A stretch of DNA of 22,705 nucleotides, from positions 1 to 22,705 of IMG/VR virus record IMGVR_UViG_3300028025_004051. The stretch is one strand, 5' to 3'. Both the position numbers and the translations under genes were made by a program. Below the pieces are notes generated by a model that was given only the letters and a program-made list of their open reading frames with translations, searched no databases and was not told where the DNA came from. Shown piece after piece: positions 3 through 13,793 of this stretch (its first letter is position 1; each line of letters starts with the position of its first letter). This DNA is from a virus.

Positions 3-569
3 TTAGATTAGTACTTCACCAAACAACTTTTTTTGTTGGGCTTCTTTTTTCTTTTTGATTTCTTCTTGTTTGGCTAGTTTTTCTTGTTTGGCTTTTAATC
101 TTTGTTGTTTTGCTCTAGCTTTTTCTTCGGTGTTTCTTCGAGCCTTACCCATTGGAGCAAAGTTGTAACCAAATTTAAGACCGTCACGGCATTGTATATT
201 TTTTTCTACAACATGCCGTAAATGTTCTTGCCCACATAATATCCTTTCACGACATAAGTCTACGTTATCGATCATTAAGTCAACGCCGTATGTAGTAGAT
301 AAGGCTTGTTCAAAGGTTGAACCATTCTCCATCTTACGAATGATAACCTCACCTAGGAATTGCCCATCACCACAACTTGGATCTAGAAAAGTTTTAGTTG
401 GGTCCGTAAACTGCCCCAATGGTAACTTCTCTAAAATTTCCTGCACTAATGGAGTTGGGGTAAAGACCTCACCCGTCACCTTTACTCTTAATTGGTCCCG
501 CTCTACTCCACCCATATAGGTGCGATTACGAATGTGGTCAACTACTTCACTTAACGTTGGCTTCAACAT
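3..569 (-). CDS. Truncated N6-adenine methyltransferase-like protein
   Basis: About 188 residues, read from the ATG at 569 (starts MLKPTLSEVV), which overlaps the end of the helicase-methyltransferase gene by 23 bp. An upstream in-frame start at 701 would overlap far more and adds no recognisable sequence. The N-terminal half carries a Type I/IIG N6-adenine methyltransferase-like segment: GEVFTPTPLV (motif X-like), then FLDPSCGDGQFL (SAM-binding motif I) and YGVD (acidic motif II position). The expected catalytic NPPY motif is not visible. Soon after the SAM-binding half the protein turns into a Lys/Glu/Gln-rich tail, probably a coiled coil or nucleic-acid-binding segment, ending LFGEVLI. It could be a SAM-binding partner of the upstream fusion, which has its own NPPY, or a decayed enzyme. 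The fold is fairly sure; the activity is unknown. Confidence 0.7.
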   Translation of the reverse strand: MLKPTLSEVVDHIRNRTYMGGVERDQLRVKVTGEVFTPTPLVQEILEKLPLGQFTDPTKTFLDPSCGDGQFLGEVIIRKMENGSTFEQALSTTYGVDLMIDNVDLCRERILCGQEHLRHVVEKNIQCRDGLKFGYNFAPMGKARRNTEEKARAKQQRLKAKQEKLAKQEEIKKKKEAQQKKLFGEVLI

Positions 570-3500
570 AATCAATTTCTTCTTGGGTAAGACCAAAATG
601 TTGGTAAAGTTCTTGGTCTGTCCAAATTTTACTAGCAAGTTTAGGCAATGATGATAGAACTTTTCCATTAAGGAATCCGCTCCACTTACCAGTATTAACA
701 ATAAATTTATAAAGTTTACTATCGAGATAACTTAAAATATTTTGTGCCTCTGCAGAGTCTGCTAGTATGTATTGACACACTTCTGAGGTGCCAAGATTAC
801 CTGCACTAAAAAAAGGTTTAAAATATCCACTAGTAGTCCAAACAATTTTAGACTTTAAAAAATCCTTTGATTGTTTTTTGCAAAACTTTGTCTGTGCATT
901 TGTGTGGAATGTTACATATTTGTAAGTTGTATCTTGAGTGTCAGAGAAATTATTGTGCTTGTGGTCACTGTGGCAAGATGTATCGCAAAGTATATCCAAC
1001 TTAGGATGAGTTGAATTAATAACTTTGTCGTGCATAGGAAATGTCTTTGCAAAATTTCTTGGCAAATACTGAAGTTTAGTAATGTCTACTGTAAGACCGT
1101 CAATCACAGCAGTTTGCGTGTTTTTATTTTTTTGTACACACCAGGCTGTAAAACTGCTACCAACGGTAAAATATTTTCCTACTTCGGTGTCGACCCAAAT
1201 AAGAGAATTATCTTTAAACATCTTCAGAAGTTGACTGTTCGGACTCATCCAACTGTCAGGAGTTACAAACGCAATAAACCCATTTGGATTTAACAACTCA
1301 ATACCCTTTTCTGCAAATTTGCTCCACAGGTTATGGCTTTTTGGTTGTTTTGTTCCTTTATCGTTATTACCTTGATAAGGGGGGTTACCTACTATCACAT
1401 CAAATTTCATATCAAATTCCATTTCTGTAAAGTCCCCTTGCATCACTACAATGCCAGGGTATTTCCGTTTAATCTGATTACAGAGAAAACTATACTTGTC
1501 ATTATACACAATCTTGTCTATAATATCAATTCCAAACATATCTACTAGTACATCTACTTCTGACCCGTGGCCGCCAGCTACTACAAGAATATGTTTACAA
1601 TGCTTACTCTTAATAAATCTTTTTAGTTCTCGATTGCCAAAAATTTCAAACCAAAGTTTTGCGTCATCCTTAAGAATAGCCAGTGCGTTATTTTCAATAT
1701 GTTTCTGTGTTGTGTTATATTTACTCATACGCACAATCATGTCTAACGTAGAAATTTCTAACCGATGTGCAAGACGTTTAATTGTATCTGGACCAACACC
1801 GTATAATTCTACGAATTCCTTGTACATTTCTGTATTGTTTTCAATGAGATCTACACATTCTAAAAAACTTTCACCTTGATAATTACTCAATGCTAGAACC
1901 GTCGTAGCACTTCCGTTAATCATACGTACAGCTTTTTCAACCACTGCCTTAAGAGGATCTTTTTTTACTTTGCCTGTAGCAGATTTTCCAGAATCAAATG
2001 TTTTACCGGTAGCAACAATTTTGTCAATTTTAGACTTTTCTGCTTTACTACCAGAAGAGCGTTTAGCCAATTCACCAAAAGCTTCGATTTCTTCAGAAGT
2101 AAGATCTTCAATAGTAATACGAGTATGAGCATTGGCAATTTCTAATAGCTTGTTGTTATCCTCGAACTCTTTAATAATTGTGTCGGCATCCATCCATTGA
2201 CCAGAAATCATGTCCTTAATGTTAACACTGTTCATTACCTCACGAACAGCTTCAGGATAAGTCTTGCCCTTCTGGCGGATTAACAATGCCGCTTCTACTG
2301 CCACACTCATTACAGAATTGCGAGTCTTACTTTGGTCAAAGGCAAAGTCAAAGATGTGACCGAATTTCTTACCGTATCCAGGAGTAAGGCAACGGCTATA
2401 CTTTTGCATGTAAGGATAAACATCGCCTCCTTCTTGCATAAACAGGCATGCCTGGATCTCAGGAATACTATAACTGCGAGTACCCATCATATTAGTGATC
2501 ACTAACAGTTTATCACGACCTGGATAGTAACCGTTTTGCAATCGGACCAATTCTTCTTTGGTAAGGCCTTCTGCTTCTTTATTATCAGTATAATCTCCGT
2601 TGAGAATTAGCACTTTGTGTTCTTCGCAATATTTCTCAATAATTTCTGCCAATGATTCCATTGACTTCTTAGAGATATTAACAAACAACATAAGATGATT
2701 GATAATCTCACCTGCGGCTTGGCTCAAGTTCATTCCGTAGATAGGTTGATATCCTAACAAGTCTTGGAATACTGCGGCAATAAACTTTTCCTGCGAACGA
2801 GCCTTTTCAAGGATCTTATTAATGTTAGGCAATACATCATTGTCAAAGTCTTCCAATAGTTTGTTCATTTTAGGATTAAACAACATATTGTAGAATCGAC
2901 GCACTACTACATTAGGAATACTAGGGTCCTGTTCTACCATGCAGTATGGAACACTAATAATCTCGTCAATGGCGTTCTTGCCGAATGCTTTAGCCAGGCG
3001 ACCAATATTAGTGCCGCTGGCATTGATACGAGTAATTGTTTTACCGTTAAGGATATATTCAACTTTGTCAACTTGACTATCAGTATGGGTACCAAAGTCG
3101 GTTTCTTCTAGCAAGGCAATGTGTGTGCCTGCTAGTTGATTAATCCACTCATACTTTTCTTCTGCTTCTGGATTAAGGCTAATAAACACAACGGGCATTT
3201 TGCCGTCTGACAGGGCCTTTTTGTATTGCTCTTCTGAGTCAGCATCTGCGGCATCAATAAACTGCATACTTGCAAAATCAATGTACTTGCCAATCTCATC
3301 CTTATAGGAAGTCTTAACACTTAGGCCAACACCATAGGCCATAATAAACATAGACTCATGGCCAAATTCTTCTCGCATGGTTTTTGCAAGAGATAGGAAC
3401 AAGATAGTCTTGCCAATACGAGCCGCTAGTTCGCAGACAAAGTTTGTTACAATGCCATTCTGGCGAAGGGCTGACAGAACTTTCTTGATTACAAGAATCT

Positions 3501-3969
3501 GAACATCACGCAGATTAACAGCCTGCTTCTCATGATTAGGATTGAGCTTTGCCGCACACTTGCGAATTTTCTCATTGAGCCAAAGTCTAATAGGTTCAAA
3601 ATCTTTAGTCTTAATAAACTGTTCAATAAGCATTTTTTCGACTGCAATTTTAAACAGTTCCGAATACCTATTAGAGTCAGGCCGAGGCAATTGTGCGGCA
3701 ACAGATTGCCTTACAATTTTATGCAGAGCATGATCTCGATAACCCGGCTCGGGGATAGTATCTAGCAAATACTTTTGCCAAGAAACGTTTTTAGAACTAG
3801 ATAGACTTAACTGGCGATCGGCGATTGTTCCTTCGGGAGCATCACCTAGACCAAATTGGAGGAACCCAGTTGATGCCATTGCGTCAATCCAAGTTTCTTC
3901 GGTCATGATGTAGATACCGGTAGTATCTGTTTTAAGGCCAAGTTCTTCAGGGGACTTTACATAAGTCAT
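547..3969 (-). CDS. Helicase-like ATPase fused to Eco57I-type N6-adenine DNA methyltransferase
   Basis: 1140 residues. Residues about 150-550 look like a superfamily 2 helicase core: a Walker A-like ELAARIGKT (180-188), a DExx-like LLEETDF (286-292), a motif III-like NASGT (316-320), and TNMMGTRSYSIPE with QKYSRCLTPG (about 492-531) resembling motifs V and VI. Residues about 790-1000 are a methyltransferase: a degenerate motif I VVAGGHGSEVD, acidic VYNDK, and catalytic GNPPY at 861-865 (N6-adenine class). The C-terminal 140 residues may be a target-recognition region. No nuclease motif is evident, so this looks more like modification or anti-restriction than a complete restriction enzyme. Its ATG shares an ATGA with the stop of the upstream 56-residue gene, with GGAG placed correctly, so translation is probably coupled. 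Domain calls are from motifs only. Confidence 0.82.
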   Translation of the reverse strand: MTYVKSPEELGLKTDTTGIYIMTEETWIDAMASTGFLQFGLGDAPEGTIADRQLSLSSSKNVSWQKYLLDTIPEPGYRDHALHKIVRQSVAAQLPRPDSNRYSELFKIAVEKMLIEQFIKTKDFEPIRLWLNEKIRKCAAKLNPNHEKQAVNLRDVQILVIKKVLSALRQNGIVTNFVCELAARIGKTILFLSLAKTMREEFGHESMFIMAYGVGLSVKTSYKDEIGKYIDFASMQFIDAADADSEEQYKKALSDGKMPVVFISLNPEAEEKYEWINQLAGTHIALLEETDFGTHTDSQVDKVEYILNGKTITRINASGTNIGRLAKAFGKNAIDEIISVPYCMVEQDPSIPNVVVRRFYNMLFNPKMNKLLEDFDNDVLPNINKILEKARSQEKFIAAVFQDLLGYQPIYGMNLSQAAGEIINHLMLFVNISKKSMESLAEIIEKYCEEHKVLILNGDYTDNKEAEGLTKEELVRLQNGYYPGRDKLLVITNMMGTRSYSIPEIQACLFMQEGGDVYPYMQKYSRCLTPGYGKKFGHIFDFAFDQSKTRNSVMSVAVEAALLIRQKGKTYPEAVREVMNSVNIKDMISGQWMDADTIIKEFEDNNKLLEIANAHTRITIEDLTSEEIEAFGELAKRSSGSKAEKSKIDKIVATGKTFDSGKSATGKVKKDPLKAVVEKAVRMINGSATTVLALSNYQGESFLECVDLIENNTEMYKEFVELYGVGPDTIKRLAHRLEISTLDMIVRMSKYNTTQKHIENNALAILKDDAKLWFEIFGNRELKRFIKSKHCKHILVVAGGHGSEVDVLVDMFGIDIIDKIVYNDKYSFLCNQIKRKYPGIVVMQGDFTEMEFDMKFDVIVGNPPYQGNNDKGTKQPKSHNLWSKFAEKGIELLNPNGFIAFVTPDSWMSPNSQLLKMFKDNSLIWVDTEVGKYFTVGSSFTAWCVQKNKNTQTAVIDGLTVDITKLQYLPRNFAKTFPMHDKVINSTHPKLDILCDTSCHSDHKHNNFSDTQDTTYKYVTFHTNAQTKFCKKQSKDFLKSKIVWTTSGYFKPFFSAGNLGTSEVCQYILADSAEAQNILSYLDSKLYKFIVNTGKWSGFLNGKVLSSLPKLASKIWTDQELYQHFGLTQEEIDYVEANVK

Positions 3970-4773: not shown

Positions 4774-5006
4774 TACATTTTTTTAGGTAGGCTTTGGTCT
4801 CTGAGTTTCTTTTGCCAACGACTTTTGGCTGCTCCTGCTCTACGCTTTCGGACAGTAGTTGGCTTTTCGTAGAACATTTTGGCTCTCAGTGTTTCCAAAA
4901 TTCCAGAATCATCTACTTTTTGTTTAAATTTTCTCAGTGCTACGTTCAACGGCAGGTCGCCTACGATAACCTTATTACCCATTAGTGCTTTGTTGTTTTT
5001 GCTCAT
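4770..5006 (-). CDS. rpsU: Ribosomal protein bS21
   Basis: 78 residues. The core [18 protein letters not shown] followed by [17 protein letters not shown] matches bS21, including the diagnostic FYEKPT.RKR stretch, with a basic C-terminal helix as in bacterial bS21. In the ribosome this protein sits on the 30S platform near the 3' end of 16S rRNA, next to the anti-Shine-Dalgarno region, and affects initiation. I chose the ATG at 5006 ([10 protein letters not shown]); a TTG at 5021 and an ATG at 4982 are alternatives. It overlaps the end of clpX by about 30 bp. Phage copies of bS21 are known in several aquatic myoviruses and huge phages and are thought to replace the host protein and bias initiation. 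Confidence 0.92.
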
Positions 5007-6222
5007 TTTTCTTTTTATCAAAAATCATAATGGCTGGTTTGCCATCAACGGTATCTTTACTTATGCGAATTGACTTCAAACCGCGTTCGACGAGATCTAC
5101 AGCATCAAACTGATAGGGCATTAAGATCTTTTCGATAATGTTTTTAAGTCCGCGAGCATTGGTTTTGAGATCTTTGGCTCGTTTTGCAATTTCATGTAAG
5201 GCATCTTGATCAAAACTTAGATTAATGCCATCTAACTCAAACATATATTGATACTGCTTGATCGTGCTGTTTTTAGTATCTACGAGAATTTTTACAAGTT
5301 GATCTTCACTGAGTTCATCTACGTTAGTAATCAATCCAAAGCGACCCACGAATTCAGGAATAAGTCCAAACTTGATAAGATCCTTGGTTGTCACTTCTTG
5401 TAGCAAAGCTGGATTATCTTCTACGTTGTCTACATTAGCATGGAAGCCTACACTTCTAGCACCTGTACGTTGTTTGATAAGTTTGTCAATGCCTACAAAG
5501 GCGCCGCCGCAGATAAACAAGATACTACGAGTATCAATCTCCTGCATATCACTGCCCGGGTGTTTGCGTTTACTAGTAGACGGCACTCTCATAATGCTGC
5601 CTTCGATCATCTTTAGCAGGGCTTGTTGCACACCTTCTCCGCTGACATCTCGGGTGATACTAGCACTTTCGCCCTTACGGCTGATCTTGTCGATTTCATC
5701 AATGTAGACAATACCTCGAGCTGCTTTTTCCATATCTCCGTCTGCTTCATTGATCAAACGAGTAAGAATACTTTCTACATCATCACCGACGTAGCCTGCC
5801 TCTGTAATACCAGTAGCATCACATATAGCAAAGGGTAGATCTAGGTATTCGGCAATCTTACGTGCCATCATTGTTTTGCCACAGCCAGTAGGACCTAACA
5901 ATAATACATTGGTTTTTTCTAGCTCAATGTCTTTACTGGGATTATTAATGCGTTTAAAATGCTGGCTAACTGCCACACTTAGTGCAATCTTAGCATCATC
6001 TTGACCTATAACATAATCGTCTAGGTACTCTTTTATTTTAACGGGGTTTAGTAGTTTAAGTGTATTAGGAAAAGTTTTTACTTTTTCATCTTTGAGTATA
6101 TCAATACAAAGCTCTACACAATCATTACAAATGGCAGCGTGATCGCCGACAATTAACTTTTCCACATCCTCTTTGCTTTTGTTGCAAAAATCACACTTGT
6201 GGTCTGTTTCCGATTTTGTCAT
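4975..6222 (-). CDS. clpX: ATP-dependent protease unfoldase ClpX
   Basis: 415 residues, essentially full bacterial length. The N-terminal zinc domain has C10, C13, C32 and C35. The AAA+ core has Walker A GPTGCGKT (110-117), pore loop GYVG (143-146), Walker B IVYIDEID (171-178), the RKH loop (219-221) used in ssrA-tag recognition, and a sensor-2 region NARGLKNII. The ClpP-docking loop reads VGF at 258-260, where E. coli has IGF, so docking to a host ClpP looks possible. No clpP is in the window. It lies in an overlapping chain with an unknown gene upstream and bS21 downstream, with AAAGAG before the ATG. A complete ClpX in a phage is unusual. In the same window the tmRNA encodes a tag ending ALAA, the class of degron ClpX reads. 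Confidence 0.95.
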
Positions 6223-8870: not shown

Positions 8871-8896
8871 CCAAAAGAAAACCCACCGAAGTGGGC
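8871..8896 (-). terminator. Intrinsic terminator after pstS
   Basis: Minus-strand CCCAC-TTCG-GTGGG hairpin with a stable tetraloop, followed by TTTTCTTTT. The tail and loop closely match the terminator after the porin gene. Confidence 0.8.
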
Positions 8897-8944
8897 TTAC
8901 TGCTGGCTACTTATCCTATTATACGCCACCAGCCGGCGATTATT

Positions 8945-9949
8945 TTATTTGACCTGCGTCCAAACACGCTCACGGATCTGTTTTGTTAGTGCATCAGGTA
9001 ATGGTACGTAGTCCAAATCTACGGCGTCTTTCTTACCATTCTTAAATGCCCAGTCAAAGAACTTAATAACTTCATCGCTGGTAGCTTTGTTTCTTGGCTC
9101 TTTGTACATGATGATGAAACTTGCCGAACTTACTGGCCAAGCATTAGGATTCTTTTGATCCACAATGCTGAGTCCCATACCGGGGACACTGAACCAATCA
9201 GCACCATCTGCGGCTGCGGCAAAGGTTAAGTCATCTGGACTAACATACTTGCCTGATTTGTTTTGTAGTTGCATAAATGTCATTTTGTTTTGTTTGACAT
9301 AGGCATACTCTACATAACCGATACTACCTTTAATTCTAGTCACATTGGCTGCAACACCTTCATTACCTTTACCACCTACTGAAGCAGACGCTGGCCACTT
9401 GACTGCGGCACCACGACCTACTTTAGCTAGCCACTCAGGACTTACTGTGCTTAGATAGTCTGTCCAATTGAATGTTGTGCCACTACCATCTGCACGATGA
9501 ATAATAGTAATTTCTAAGTTAGGTAAGTTCTTACCTGGATTCAATGCTACTAGTTTAGGATCATTCCAACGATTAATGTTGCCCAAGAATACTTCTGCTA
9601 ATACTGGACCAGTGATGCGTAGTTCTCCGGGCTTGATGCCATCTAAGTTGACAACAGGAACTGTTCCGCCGATAATAGCAGGGAATTGAATTTGTCCGTT
9701 CTTGTCTAAATCTTCACCTTTGACTGGAGCATCGGTTGCTCCAAAGTCTACTGTGCGAGCATTGATTTGTCTAATGCCGCCCGAACTACCGATACTTTGA
9801 TAGTTTAAACTTTTTCCAGTTTCTTTCTTGTATCCTTCGGCCCACTTATAATAGATAGGGAATGGGAACGTTGCTCCAGCACCCACCATGTCTGTGGCCT
9901 GTGCTGATATAGCTACTGAGGCTAATAGAATAGCAAATAGTTTTTTCAC
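8945..9949 (-). CDS. pstS: Periplasmic phosphate-binding protein PstS
   Basis: 334 residues with a signal peptide (about 1-18, cleavage near SAQA-T). The phosphate-binding signatures are present: GAGATFPFPIYYKW, IGSSGGIRQI, DFGATDAPV and RADGSGTTFNWTDYL. PstS captures inorganic phosphate in the periplasm and passes it to the PstCAB transporter; no pstC, A or B is in the window, so it must work with the host transporter. It begins with GTG, preceded by AAGGAG. A Pho-box-like repeat lies 48-65 bp upstream and a hairpin terminator follows, making it a self-contained unit. Phage pstS genes under Pho boxes are established in cyanophages. This version looks betaproteobacterial in style. The call is firm. 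Confidence 0.95.
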   Translation of the reverse strand: MKKLFAILLASVAISAQATDMVGAGATFPFPIYYKWAEGYKKETGKSLNYQSIGSSGGIRQINARTVDFGATDAPVKGEDLDKNGQIQFPAIIGGTVPVVNLDGIKPGELRITGPVLAEVFLGNINRWNDPKLVALNPGKNLPNLEITIIHRADGSGTTFNWTDYLSTVSPEWLAKVGRGAAVKWPASASVGGKGNEGVAANVTRIKGSIGYVEYAYVKQNKMTFMQLQNKSGKYVSPDDLTFAAAADGADWFSVPGMGLSIVDQKNPNAWPVSSASFIIMYKEPRNKATSDEVIKFFDWAFKNGKKDAVDLDYVPLPDALTKQIRERVWTQVK

Positions 9950-9979
9950 TTGTAAGTCTCCTTGTGTTTGTGATATTAA

Positions 9980-10014
9980 TATTTAAACACAAAATGATTA
10001 CAATATGATTACAA
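9980..10014 (-). promoter_or_regulatory. Pho-box promoter of pstS
   Basis: Minus strand reads TTGTAAT-CATA-TTGTAAT (10014-9997), a degenerate third repeat TTGTGTT (9992-9986), and TAAATA (9985-9980) exactly 11 bp after the second repeat. The 7+4 direct-repeat layout is that of PhoB binding sites, which replace the -35 box. The same arrangement recurs before the metallophosphoesterase gene. Confidence 0.78.
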
Positions 10015-10024
10015 TTTTAAGATT

Positions 10025-10747
10025 TTAATTCCAATATTTAGAACCGTCTAATCTATCCCAATATGCTTTGTTATTGCGATTGACAAAGTTTTTAATCAAG
10101 TAAGCGGCCATACCAAAGTATCCCATCTTTTTGAATCTACGACTGTCCTGCCCGAAATGGTGATTAACAAGTTTAAACTTTTTTGGACTATACATTCTCG
10201 ATAGGAAGTAGTCCTCCGATGTTGATGCTTTTTCAGGAAACCCTCCGAATTCATCGAATCGATCCTTGCGTGTTAACATAAATGCACCAACTGCAAAAGG
10301 GCTAAAGAATTTTAAAATATGATTTATAATATTAAACAGAGTAAAGCCGATCTTTGCTCTAACATCGTTGTCATAACATTTAATATTCAACCCAATGAGA
10401 TCTAAGTCTTTTGATTCCATTTCAAAGACAGCATCACGAATAACAGTGTCTTTAAAGAATCGAACATCTGCATCAATGAATAATATATAAGGAGTAGTAA
10501 CTAATCTAGCACCGTTATTCTTAGCTGTAGACACAGGTCCACCTTCTATGATTTCCACATTGAGATTGCCTTTTACAGCCTGTATTACTTCTCGAGTGTT
10601 ATCTGTTGAACAGTCTGCAATGATGATTCTAGTACTACCTATCATTTGATTGCGTAAGTGCGTTAACAGATATGGGATATAGTTTTCCTCATTTTTACAA
10701 GGAACTACAATAGTAATTTTGTCACTGAATTTCATTTCTTTATACAT
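10025..10747 (-). CDS. Family 2 glycosyltransferase, probably membrane-associated
   Basis: 240 residues. GT-A fold signatures: ITIVVPCKNEENYI (about 11-24), IIADCSTDNT (about 42-51), a metal-binding DADV (92-95) in ILFIDADVRF, and an acidic STSEDYFLSR (about 176-184) in the acceptor region. A hydrophobic stretch at about 133-160 suggests membrane contact, fitting a lipid-linked acceptor. The gene follows the metallophosphoesterase by about 20 bp in the same transcript, and pstS comes next, so expression under phosphate starvation is likely. I infer that it may glycosylate diacylglycerol released by the phosphoesterase, but many GT2 enzymes act on polyprenyl phosphate or polysaccharide and that cannot be excluded. 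The start could also be the ATG at 10735. Confidence 0.87.
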   Translation of the reverse strand: MYKEMKFSDKITIVVPCKNEENYIPYLLTHLRNQMIGSTRIIIADCSTDNTREVIQAVKGNLNVEIIEGGPVSTAKNNGARLVTTPYILFIDADVRFFKDTVIRDAVFEMESKDLDLIGLNIKCYDNDVRAKIGFTLFNIINHILKFFSPFAVGAFMLTRKDRFDEFGGFPEKASTSEDYFLSRMYSPKKFKLVNHHFGQDSRRFKKMGYFGMAAYLIKNFVNRNNKAYWDRLDGSKYWN

Positions 10748-10768
10748 TCTCCCTCAACTTTAAATTGA

Positions 10769-11650
10769 TTAAACTTTAGTTGATACGACATTGTCTTCAG
10801 GACTGATTCGCACGATTTCTGATCCGGGAATATCAGTGTTATTCTTCCTGGAATGTCGTTTGGATTGCTTGAATGAATCGCTAACAATAACATTATCCAC
10901 ATCGTCCTTCTCCTTGGTCCAGGTAACTATTTCCCAACGACCATCCCAATGTTCTACGAGAGCTGTACAGCTTTCGACCCAGTCGCCGTCATTCATATAC
11001 ATTACACCATCTATTTCTTTAATCTCTGCGTGATGTATGTGTCCACATATAACTCCATCAAAGCCGCGCTTCTTGCAATAGCCTGCTAGATTGTTCTCAA
11101 ACTTGAACATAAAATCCACAGCCTTCTTTACACGATGTTTAAGATATTTGCTCAGTGACCAATATCCAAATCCCATCTTATGACGTAGCCAGTTAAACTT
11201 GCCGTTTAGATATAGAATAAAGTCGTAGGCCTTGTCACCTAAAAATCCCAACCAAGGTGCTAGGCGTGTGATACCATCAAACAAGTCGCCGTGTGTAACT
11301 AGATAGTGCTTACCATCTGCACCTATATGTTCTATTTGATTATGTATCTCAACATGACCAAAACTAAAACCATAGGGTATCATTGGTCTTAGAAATTCAT
11401 CGTGATTACCTGCTATGAATATAACCCGGGTCCCACGCTTGGCATGTCCTAGTACACGACGGACTACATTGGTATGACTCTGCTTCCATCGCCATTTGTT
11501 TTGTTGTATCTTCCAGGCATCAATGATATCGCCTACAAGATAAAGTGTATCGCAGGAGTTATGTTTAAGAAAGTTGTTTAATTTATCCGCTTGACTGTCT
11601 TTGGTTCCGAGATGCACATCACTGACAAAGATTGAGCGGTATGTCTTCAT
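10769..11650 (-). CDS. LpxH/PlcP-type metallophosphoesterase
   Basis: 293 residues of the calcineurin-like superfamily. Metal ligands are visible: D11 and H13 (SDVHLG), D41 (GDIID), N82 and H83 (GNHDE), H120 (THGD) and H204/H206 (GHIHH). WSLSKYLKHRVKKAV and NDGDWVESCTALVEH place it in the COG2908 branch usually labelled UDP-2,3-diacylglucosamine diphosphatase. That branch includes PlcP, the phosphate-starvation phospholipase C of Sinorhizobium and SAR11, which cuts phospholipids to diacylglycerol. The Pho-box promoter, the glycosyltransferase downstream and pstS next in line favour the PlcP role over lipid A synthesis. There is no clear ribosome binding site, and the promoter -10 lies so close to the ATG that the message may be leaderless. 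Fold is certain; substrate is inferred. Confidence 0.88.
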   Translation of the reverse strand: MKTYRSIFVSDVHLGTKDSQADKLNNFLKHNSCDTLYLVGDIIDAWKIQQNKWRWKQSHTNVVRRVLGHAKRGTRVIFIAGNHDEFLRPMIPYGFSFGHVEIHNQIEHIGADGKHYLVTHGDLFDGITRLAPWLGFLGDKAYDFILYLNGKFNWLRHKMGFGYWSLSKYLKHRVKKAVDFMFKFENNLAGYCKKRGFDGVICGHIHHAEIKEIDGVMYMNDGDWVESCTALVEHWDGRWEIVTWTKEKDDVDNVIVSDSFKQSKRHSRKNNTDIPGSEIVRISPEDNVVSTKV

Positions 11651-11655
11651 ACTAT

Positions 11656-11690
11656 TATTTAAGGAATATTCGATTACAATATGATTACAA
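11656..11690 (-). promoter_or_regulatory. Pho-box promoter of the metallophosphoesterase operon
   Basis: TTGTAAT-CATA-TTGTAAT (11690-11673), 11 bp, then TAAATA (11661-11656). Repeat sequence, spacing and -10 match the pstS promoter base for base. It begins two bases past the end of the porin terminator. Confidence 0.78.
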
Positions 11691-11692
11691 TG

Positions 11693-11719
11693 CCAAAAGA
11701 AAACCCGCCGAAGCGGGTT
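11693..11719 (-). terminator. Intrinsic terminator after porin
   Basis: Minus-strand AACCCGC-TTCG-GCGGGTT hairpin followed by TTCTTTT. Its 3' half shares GGGTTTTCTTTTGG with the terminator after pstS. Confidence 0.82.
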
Positions 11720-11737: not shown

Positions 11738-12646
11738 TTAGAAACTGTGGACTAAACCAACACCATATTGTCTAACATCGTTGGCTGTACCACCGGCATC
11801 AACATTACGATAGGCAACCAATGCACTGGTACGCTTGCTGAAAGCGTAGTTAACACCTAGGTTATAGGCTTTAACTTCACTAATAGACAAACCAGTCTTA
11901 GTACCGTAGCTACCTCTAAGGGTAACTGGGGTTCCGTGTACAGGAACAGTAGCACCGTATAAACGACCTTTGGTCTCAACTACGCCAGTCTTGTCTTCAC
12001 TTTGAATTGTAGACAATGTAACACCTGCTACTTGACCACTAAGGGTTACTAGATTAGTATAATCAGTGCCTGACTCGAAACGAGCAATGGCTGCTGTAAC
12101 TGGACCTGCCTTACCACCGAGGCTCCAAGAAATTGCTTCAGCAGTTGTTGGGTTGGTGTACATACTACGATCATAGTTAGCGATCACTGGACCTACTTTT
12201 GTTCCAAAGAATACGCTGTCACCCATGCGTCTAGAACGATCATTGATAACATCTGGTGAAACAGATGCGTATGTTGCACCACCGAATGAATCAGCGGCTT
12301 TTATAGTAAGGAACGCACTGTGCTCTTTGCGGCCTAGGTCAATGCTGGCAAACTTAGAACCAAGACCTACAGTAGCTTGACGATCGCCAAGTTGTGTAGA
12401 TGCGCCTGCTTTTGGATCATCCAACGCAACAGTAGTGTCAACGACCACTCTAGTAGATAAACCACCGTTGAGCTTCTCTTCAGCTCTGAAAACAATGCGG
12501 CTTGAGTCATTCACTAAAGAAGTAACTTCGGTACTACCTGTTTTTGTGCTGTCAACAAACGTGGCAATTCTACCACTGACAGTAACTTGAGCAGAGGCTG
12601 CAATCGCGGAGACCGCTAATACAGTTGCTAATACAATTTTCTTCAT
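11738..12646 (-). CDS. Outer-membrane porin, Burkholderiales type
   Basis: 302 residues. A signal peptide (MKKIVLATVLAVSAIAASA, then QVTVSGRI) leads into a beta-barrel of alternating strands: SSRIVFRAEEKLNGG, RQATVGLG and FASIDLGR are typical of the Gram-negative porin family of Burkholderiales. It ends in YGVGLVHSF, with the C-terminal Phe needed for Bam-dependent insertion. It is shorter than the usual 340-400 residue host porins, perhaps from shortened loops. It has its own promoter, ribosome binding site (AAAGGAAA) and terminator. Possible roles are replacing host porins to alter nutrient entry, or blocking superinfection as the porin of lambdoid phage PA-2 does. A phage-borne porin next to a phosphate cassette suggests anion uptake, but pore selectivity cannot be read from sequence. 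Confidence 0.9.
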   Translation of the reverse strand: MKKIVLATVLAVSAIAASAQVTVSGRIATFVDSTKTGSTEVTSLVNDSSRIVFRAEEKLNGGLSTRVVVDTTVALDDPKAGASTQLGDRQATVGLGSKFASIDLGRKEHSAFLTIKAADSFGGATYASVSPDVINDRSRRMGDSVFFGTKVGPVIANYDRSMYTNPTTAEAISWSLGGKAGPVTAAIARFESGTDYTNLVTLSGQVAGVTLSTIQSEDKTGVVETKGRLYGATVPVHGTPVTLRGSYGTKTGLSISEVKAYNLGVNYAFSKRTSALVAYRNVDAGGTANDVRQYGVGLVHSF

Positions 12647-12718: not shown

Positions 12719-12745
12719 AAAAAAGGCTACCTAAGTAGCCTTTTT
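12719..12745 (-). terminator. Intrinsic terminator after the tmRNA gene
   Basis: Minus-strand AAAAGGCTAC-TTAG-GTAGCCTTTT, a perfect 10-bp stem, followed by further T residues. Confidence 0.85.
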
Positions 12746-13080
12746 GGTGGTTTCTGTTACGAGGTATTTCCTACCCTAAGCCGAGTTTAGGCGGCTAAAG
12801 CGAACTGTTCGTCGTTTGCATTTACGTTTTTTGCTTCTTCGGCCGAGTTCCCCCAACCCTAACGGCTTCTACATTGCCGGACTGTCCATTTCAATACTTG
12901 TGACCCTGTCGAAACCATGGCAGGCCCATCAGAAGTAGTTTATGTTTGTCAATCTAGATATTTAAAAAGGGCATATTCGAATTAGCCTCTAGCATCCTCG
13001 GAAGGGACAAATCTAACTGTGTTCAAAACTACTTTTGGTGGACCTGGCGGGAGTCGAACCCGCGTCCAGAATCCTTTTCT
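12746..13080 (-). ncRNA. ssrA: Permuted two-piece tmRNA
   Basis: The 3' acceptor piece comes first (about 13080-13036), with T-arm GCGGG-TTCGACT-CCCGC and an encoded CCA ending at 13036. The coding piece starts at 12927 with GGGCCUG. GGGCCUG pairs with CAGGUCC as a 7-bp acceptor stem whose third pair is G-U, the alanine identity element. CAGGGUC of the coding piece pairs with GAUUCUG of the acceptor piece to form helix P2. A 108-base intervening segment (13035-12928) separates the pieces; AAGUAGUUU at its start pairs perfectly with AAACUACUU near its end, which would hold the precursor together for processing. The tag frame follows, then pseudoknot-like sequence and a terminator. Permuted tmRNAs are known in alphaproteobacteria, cyanobacteria and a betaproteobacterial group. 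The role is rescue of stalled ribosomes and tagging of the unfinished peptide. Confidence 0.93.
12787..12819 (-). other. tmRNA tag reading frame ANDEQFALAA
   Basis: GCA resume codon at 12819, then nine codons and TAA. The encoded peptide ANDEQFALAA closely resembles betaproteobacterial tags such as ANDERFALAA and ends in the ALAA degron read by ClpX and ClpA. Confidence 0.93.
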
Positions 13081-13108
13081 GTCTACTTCATACAGTCTTA
13101 ACTTTTAT

Positions 13109-13435
13109 TTACACTCTAAAACTTTCGCCACAACCACATTTATCACGTTCATTGGGATTACGAAATTCAAACCCTTCATTGAGTCCATTACGAGCCCAAT
13201 CAACTATGAGTCCTTGTAGGTATACCAATGACTTTGCATCAACTAGTACTACAAAATCTGGTTGAGCAAAATTAGTTACCCCCTCTTCAGCAATGTAACT
13301 ATCAACATATTCTAACGTATAAGCAAGGCCGCTACAACCTGTAGTTTTTACACCTAGCCGTATACCAATACCCTTGCCACGTTTGGACAGGAGCTGAGTG
13401 ATTTTCTTATTGGCTGTGTCGGTTACGGTAATCAT
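13109..13435 (-). CDS. iscA: A-type iron-sulfur carrier (IscA/ErpA/HesB)
   Basis: 108 residues. The three family cysteines are present: one in TTGCSGLAY (about C34) and two in the CGCGESF motif near the C-terminus. Length and layout match bacterial IscA and ErpA. The protein receives Fe-S clusters or iron and delivers clusters to apoproteins in the cytoplasm. Its ATG overlaps the end of iscU by 29 bp, so the two are co-translated. Host isc genes such as iscS, hscAB and fdx are absent from the window, so the phage pair must plug into the host machinery. Clients in the window are not obvious. IscA versus ErpA cannot be settled by eye. Confidence 0.92.
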   Translation of the reverse strand: MITVTDTANKKITQLLSKRGKGIGIRLGVKTTGCSGLAYTLEYVDSYIAEEGVTNFAQPDFVVLVDAKSLVYLQGLIVDWARNGLNEGFEFRNPNERDKCGCGESFRV

Positions 13436-13793
13436 TTACGGCCGCTTTAATAGCATCTTCTGCTAGAATACTACAATGTATCTTTACCGGGGGAAGGGCC
13501 AGTTCTTCGGCAATTTCGGAGTTTTTGATTGATCCTGCTTCGTCGAGTGTTTTTCCTTTGACCCATTCGGTAATGAGACTCGAGCTCGCGATAGCCGATC
13601 CACAGCCATACGTTTTAAATTTTGCATCTGTAATAATACCTGTATCATTGTCAACCTTTATCTGTAACTTCATTACATCGCCGCAAGCAGGTGCGCCAAC
13701 CATACCAGTACCAACATTAGGATCACTCTTGTCAAAAGATCCGACATTCCTGGGATTTTCATAGTGGTCAACAACTTTATCTGAATAGGCCAT
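13407..13793 (-). CDS. iscU: Iron-sulfur scaffold IscU
   Basis: 128 residues, full length. Cluster ligands are all present: the cysteine in APACGDVMKL (C37), the cysteine in KTYGCGSAIASSS, and the His-Cys pair in LPPVKIHCSILAEDAI. The LPPVK segment is the HscA chaperone recognition motif, so the phage protein should still interact with the host HscA/HscB. IscU assembles new [2Fe-2S] clusters using sulfur from IscS. Its ATG overlaps the stop of the His-rich secreted protein (TAATG) with no independent ribosome binding site, indicating coupling. With all catalytic residues intact this is presumably active rather than an inhibitor. Confidence 0.94.
   Translation of the reverse strand: MAYSDKVVDHYENPRNVGSFDKSDPNVGTGMVGAPACGDVMKLQIKVDNDTGIITDAKFKTYGCGSAIASSSLITEWVKGKTLDEAGSIKNSEIAEELALPPVKIHCSILAEDAIKAAVNDYRNRHSQ

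Follow-up and report, generated by a model that had tools for sequence, protein, structure and literature searches.

A candidate phosphate-controlled cassette for membrane lipid renovation in large phages

The window examined here is the whole of IMG/VR virus record IMGVR_UViG_3300028025_004051 (22,705 bp), which carries all of its identified genes on the minus strand. Three of them form a cassette: plcP, encoding a metallophosphoesterase; a family 2 glycosyltransferase (GT2) gene; and pstS, encoding a periplasmic phosphate-binding protein. The cassette is quite probably a phage-borne operon for membrane lipid renovation under phosphate control, to which the PlcP family identity, the pairing with a glycosyltransferase (GT), the Pho-type boxes, and purifying selection all point at the sequence level. 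It also seems likely that, in many of the large phages that infect aquatic bacteria, both enzymes of lipid renovation form one complete operon, in the interchangeable versions PlcP plus GT2 and PlcP plus an Agt-like family 4 glycosyltransferase (GT4), that the GT2 glycolipid synthase family, almost solely viral in our searches, serves this purpose, and that infection at low phosphate would itself turn host phospholipid into glycolipid.

The preliminary description of this DNA had reported tandem phosphoesterase and GT2 genes followed by pstS, and all three genes are located there on the minus strand. It had also stated that a Pho-box-like repeat opens each transcript; both repeats are perfect, with the correction that plcP and GT2 share one promoter and box and that pstS has its own. 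In order of transcription, the cassette consists of a terminator, a Pho-box-like repeat, plcP, GT2, an identical repeat, pstS, and a terminator, as follows.

11702-11719, minus strand: intrinsic terminator that ends the porin transcript upstream, a 7-bp stem (AACCCGC/GCGGGTT) then TTCTTTT, which insulates the cassette
11672-11690, minus strand: Pho-box-like tandem repeat TTGTAATCATATTGTAATC of the plcP-GT2 transcript, 11-bp period, exact match
11656-11661, minus strand: TAAATA of plcP-GT2, -10-like or late-promoter-like, 17 nt after the first base of TGT in the second half-site
10769-11650, minus strand: plcP, PlcP-type metallophosphoesterase (predicted phospholipase C), 293 amino acids (aa), ATG start, Metallophos PF00149 at 4.8e-11
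10025-10747, minus strand: GT2 glycosyltransferase gene, 240 aa, ATG start, 21 nt after plcP, Glycos_transf_2 PF00535 at 1.7e-19
9996-10014, minus strand: second exact copy of TTGTAATCATATTGTAATC, here as the Pho-box-like tandem repeat of the pstS transcript
9980-9985, minus strand: TAAATA of pstS, -10-like or late-promoter-like, 17 nt after the first base of TGT in the second half-site
8945-9949, minus strand: pstS, periplasmic phosphate-binding protein, 334 aa, GTG start, signal peptide-like N terminus, NF008171 at 8e-119
8879-8898, minus strand: intrinsic terminator after pstS and end of the cassette, an 8-bp stem then TCTTTT

With up to three mismatches allowed, the 19-bp repeat was found twice in the window, both times perfectly and with no further site; the chance expectation is 0.01 matches, and two copies appeared in none of 100 shuffles. 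PstS passes the curated NF008171 equivalog cutoff (396.7 versus 339 bits) and also matches phrog_5385 (2.8e-65).

The phage PlcP is 55% identical over 243 aa to a protein (L086) encoded beside an Agt-like gene on a Pseudomonas aeruginosa plasmid. Gene order and length (270 aa, with a GT neighbor and a cyclase-domain gene behind) indicate that L086 is PA3219; the PlcP and Agt1 functions of PA3219-PA3218 have been shown by experiment (PMC8528852). The identity is 43% to a Sinorhizobium meliloti protein (L085), which is probably the characterized PlcP of that species. The metallophosphoesterase blocks are all present and invariant (D11, H13, G40-D41, G81-N82-H83-D84, H120, and G203-H204-x-H206). 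Across viral homologs, the median ratio of nonsynonymous to synonymous substitution rates (dN/dS) is 0.10 for PlcP, 0.08 for GT2, 0.16 for GT4, and 0.09 for PstS; purifying selection is strong.

Close relatives of the phage PlcP are encoded on at least 599 viral contigs. We took the 80 closest loci and could see the next gene in 78; it encodes a glycosyltransferase in all 78, of the window's GT2 type in 55 and of GT4 in 23. The GT4 of the sister phages, with its Glycos_transf_1/Glyco_transf_4 domains, shares 39% identity over 325 aa with Agt1, which makes monoglucosyl-diacylglycerol (PMC8528852). On the plcP tree of the window's clade, parsimony requires at least eight switches between GT2 and GT4, or at least four when only well-supported branches are counted, so that two unrelated glycosyltransferases occupy the same slot. 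When loci are instead collected by their GT, plcP accompanies it in 205 of 206: all 78 retrieved with a GT2 profile, 49 of 50 retrieved with a distant GT2 (identity as low as 37%), and all 78 retrieved with GT4. Four loci without upstream sequence are omitted, and the three sets partly overlap in contigs. Among the judgeable viral GT2 loci, the figure is 127 of 128. In a more distant set of 80 loci, whose PlcP is 52 to 94% identical to that of the isolated SAR11 phage Mosig, a GT2 or GT4 gene lies within two genes of plcP in 50; the other 30 are at contig ends, were not resolved by gene calling, or have no GT, as in Mosig. A fatty acid desaturase gene (PF00487) stands a few genes from plcP-GT in about 27 of 160 GT-centered loci (for example, L035, 6261-6962), possibly a second lipid-modifying function.

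The window's glycosyltransferase falls outside the Agt class (GT4, GT-B fold) and is instead a GT2 enzyme with a GT-A fold, modeled at a predicted local distance difference test (pLDDT) score of 91. Its catalytic motifs are intact, with D92 and D94 (DAD/DxD) and E178-D179 (ED) invariant in 20 aligned sequences. We regard it as a predicted diacylglycerol glycosyltransferase on the basis of its fixed partnership with plcP and its exchange with the Agt-like GT4. Two short peptide patterns, run against 84,980 species of bacteria and archaea in a scan that is not exhaustive, gave close matches in just three SAR86 genomes (62 to 64% identity) and one contig of a metagenome-assembled genome (MAG). 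The MAG contig is 3 kb long, matches at 78% identity, has the end of a plcP gene in front, and is itself viral-looking. A profile search found GT2 in 5 of the 107 genomes of the SAR86 family, overlapping plcP every time, and in none of 294 Burkholderiales-order genomes save that same contig. In one SAR86 locus (L172), the GT2-plcP pair stands beside the alkaline phosphatase genes phoX and phoD, and this arrangement is independent cellular support for a lipid role in phosphate starvation. The TGT-type tandem box was not found in the SAR86 intergenic region.

Control by phosphate is suggested by the spacing of TGT[AC]A[TC] half-sites. Upstream of 54 nonredundant plcP genes, pairs lie 11 bp apart 35 times (0.015 expected), while the other distances of up to 40 occur once. 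In 1.06 Mb of related viral DNA there are 84 pairs at the 11-bp period versus 1 to 8 at other spacings, nearly all of them preceding plcP, pstS, or one gene for an alanine-rich protein; the pstS genes of 11 related loci have the 11-bp box upstream. The window has the promoter layout of the Pho regulon, with 11-bp tandem half-sites just upstream of a -10-like element. Of the 35 boxed plcP upstream regions, 21 have TAAATA at a constant distance of 17 nt. The same hexamer precedes 289 of 1,036 genes in loci L002 to L081 (78 expected), and because it is enriched before so many genes, the box may be superimposed on a late promoter of the T4 type or just stand in for a -35 element. The alanine-rich, probably coiled protein is encoded next to the plcP-GT pair with an 11-bp Pho-type box of its own (L030 at 9710-10363, L043, L054, L069, L076, and others), and its gene would be a third member of a phage phosphate regulon.

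We propose the following mechanism. At low phosphate in the infected cell, host PhoB, probably the switch, would bind the 11-bp tandem boxes and turn on both transcripts. PlcP would strip the phosphate headgroup off host membrane phospholipids to leave diacylglycerol, GT2 would move a sugar from a nucleotide sugar onto the diacylglycerol to form a phosphate-free glycolipid, and PstS would raise phosphate uptake. In the known pathway, PlcP makes diacylglycerol and Agt makes glycosyl-diacylglycerol; GT2 would do what Agt does, probably with the opposite anomer. With the enzymes active in the phage as predicted, the phage would gain or spare phosphorus, and its yield may benefit.

Several points weigh against this account. 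PlcP frees a phospho-headgroup (phosphoethanolamine or similar) and not inorganic phosphate, so the gain may be phosphorus sparing in the membrane, or a further phosphatase may be needed to obtain inorganic phosphate. The fold neighbors of GT2 are TarS/TarP and other, mostly saccharide, transferases at 10 to 19% identity, which do not indicate a lipid acceptor; as the nearest solved folds are not lipid enzymes, both donor and acceptor of GT2 are predictions. The structure model of PlcP is weak (pLDDT 70), too weak for pocket comparison. The plcP genes of Mosig and S-SRM01 have no adjoining GT gene. Only 4 of the 37 upstream regions in the second viral plcP clade contain a TGT-type tandem box, two members (Mosig among them) show a pair of the TTTAAC type, and we dropped the Pho-box claim for that clade. 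Finally, many Burkholderiales-order genomes (76 of 195) have a plcP of their own, so the phage copy may do no more than strengthen a pathway that is already there. The preliminary description had proposed that lipid conversion frees phosphate for the phage. That reading is partly supported. A PlcP with a lipid-type GT, phosphate regulated and in a phage, passed all of the sequence tests; by the known chemistry, PlcP would not by itself release free phosphate, and the Pho box is largely confined to the window's clade.

Some of the same evidence bears on the possibility that PlcP and the GT act as proposed and that the benefit is structural, through bilayer synthesis or an envelope change during the long infection of a large phage, and not phosphate for phage DNA. 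The headgroup product, the desaturase genes close to the pair, and a second viral clade mostly without Pho boxes would all suit it, while the linkage to pstS and the shared Pho-type boxes in the window's clade suggest phosphate limitation as the trigger. We consider a purely structural benefit possible but doubtful.

Much less probable is that the phosphoesterase is a viral LpxH in lipid A synthesis, with GT2 altering lipopolysaccharide (LPS) to block superinfection or change a receptor. The two families share a metallophosphoesterase superfamily, a COG (COG2908), and an automatic name, UDP-2,3-diacylglucosamine diphosphatase; the best fold matches of the weak PlcP model are LpxH, and GT2 has a weak match to GtrB-like O-antigen conversion enzymes. 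The phage PlcP does match an LpxH profile at 3.9e-12, but it falls well under the cutoffs of the curated profiles (34.2 versus 190.35 bits for TIGR01854 and 45.8 versus 134 bits for NF003743). We applied a five-block test (D-x-H, GD, GNH(D/E), H, and GHxH, with histidine in block 3). Block 3 is GNH in all 71 PlcP-type sequences, viral and cellular, and GNR in all 15 LpxH sequences; the viral motif is GNHD versus GNRD. The change from histidine to arginine in block 3 is unique to LpxH, where the arginine sits on the lipid X phosphate (PMC3087551, PMC5016852), and it is seen in no viral sequence. The preliminary description had called the protein PlcP-like and named grouping with LpxH as the result that would speak against it. 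In a maximum-likelihood tree of 71 PlcP or viral rows and 15 LpxH rows, LpxH forms one clade separated at 100/100, with the phage protein outside it. PA3219 (L086) and the S. meliloti homolog (L085) fall on the PlcP side, as do the viral proteins, which split into two main groups: that of the window, with 24 rows at 100/99, and another that contains Mosig. P. aeruginosa LpxH2, which at 270 aa appears to be PA3219, fails to rescue the loss of lpxH in E. coli (PMC3087551). Pho boxes and pstS suit phosphate and not LPS, and the GT4 partner is Agt-like. An LpxH match is present in 17 of 18 Burkholderiales-order genomes, and a separate PlcP-type gene accompanies it in 5 of the 17. By the block 3 residue, the profile scores below the cutoffs, and the tree position, we rejected an LpxH identity; judged from its sequence, the phage phosphoesterase is PlcP, a predicted phospholipase C.

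The viral status of the record itself rests on phage-type genes in the window (nrdA/nrdB, a DNA methylase gene, and a tail-lysozyme-like gene) and on a gene order common to viral contigs of up to 228 kb; neither capsid nor terminase genes were found in the 22,705 bp. A T4-type gp23 capsid gene is present in 11 of the 22 records tested, on contigs of 126 to 525 kb, and the terminase model PF03237 matched just 1 of 13 records. In Mosig, plcP is divergent from a phosphate-transporter gene. The idea that remnants of bacterial or prophage DNA were wrongly filed as viral contigs, with the cassette being ordinary host genes, could draw on the lack of capsid and terminase genes and on the host-like porin, iscU, iscA, clpX, and transfer-messenger RNA (tmRNA) genes of the window, but it is hardly credible and was rejected given the gp23-bearing contigs with the same pair and the phage isolate, besides the separate clades of viral plcP and the near absence of GT2 from the 294 Burkholderiales-order genomes.

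The source is probably a large phage of a betaproteobacterium, since the window encodes a permuted tmRNA of the Betaproteobacteria type and a Gram-negative porin that gives a weak hit to the neisserial PorB family. The tmRNA gene (12719-13147, minus strand; RF01850, 120 bits; ARAGORN tag ANDEQFALAA) overlaps the 3' end region of iscA, and iscA and iscU, for iron-sulfur cluster assembly, occupy 13109-13793 (minus strand), with related genes in several sister contigs. The porin gene (11738-12646, minus strand; Porin_4, 5.6e-24) lies directly upstream of the cassette and has its own TAAATA element without a Pho box; porins also occur at other loci. The same phage encodes a full-length ClpX with a zinc finger (4975-6222, minus strand), and ClpX and tmRNA together could redirect host protein degradation. 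The C-terminal portion of a 1,140-aa protein (547-3969, minus strand) carries a methylase domain of the Eco57I type, and a second frame (3-701) overlaps the end of the gene for this protein.

The closest known systems are the bacterial PlcP-Agt operons (PA3219-PA3218 of P. aeruginosa and that of SAR11 HTCC7211, with PlcP also in Phaeobacter MED193 and S. meliloti). They share the PlcP family, the order of plcP and then a GT gene, and a Pho box in front, and many sister phages use a GT4 that resembles Agt. In contrast, the window's pair is phage borne, its transcription may be linked to the TAAATA promoters of the phage, and GT2 (GT-A, inverting by family) replaces the GT4 Agt (GT-B, retaining), from which a beta and not an alpha anomer of the glycolipid is predicted. 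The SAR86 group (phoD-phoX-GT2-plcP in L172; GT2-plcP also in L173 and L175) has the same GT2 family next to plcP with phosphate starvation genes around, but it is cellular and rare, has the order GT2 and then plcP, and its plcP product is only about 44% identical to that of the phage. In cyanophages, pstS and other genes are known to be under host PhoBR control; there, as would be the case here, the regulator of the host recognizes a Pho box of the phage (PMC10976474 and references therein). Those genes raise uptake or nucleotide recycling, and no phospholipase-glycosyltransferase pair is described in that paper.

The plcP genes of Mosig and S-SRM01 are annotated just as UDP-2,3-diacylglucosamine hydrolase or diphosphatase. 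Viral lpxH (K03269) has been listed as an auxiliary metabolic gene for LPS synthesis in Lake Baikal, there with a desaturase (PMC9611531, Table 2), and in the Levantine Basin (PMC10653327); going by the annotation name, these entries may be misnamed PlcP. Our literature searches, which covered open-license papers, found no report of viral PlcP or of phage lipid renovation. As the pathway is known in bacteria, what is new is its genetic setting, a phage, and its new glycosyltransferase partner.

The membrane is one of the large phosphorus pools of a cell. Known phage phosphate genes serve uptake, scavenging, and regulation, and if the proposed role is true, phages would also control where the phosphorus of the host is stored. 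Infected bacteria in phosphorus-poor water would then change lipid class and confound lipid biomarkers of phosphorus stress, and the GT2 family would be a candidate for glycolipid synthesis. The existence of Mosig, an isolated SAR11 phage whose plcP adjoins a gene for a phosphate transporter, makes the system directly testable, and our results suggest that the viral lpxH genes in existing catalogs deserve reexamination.

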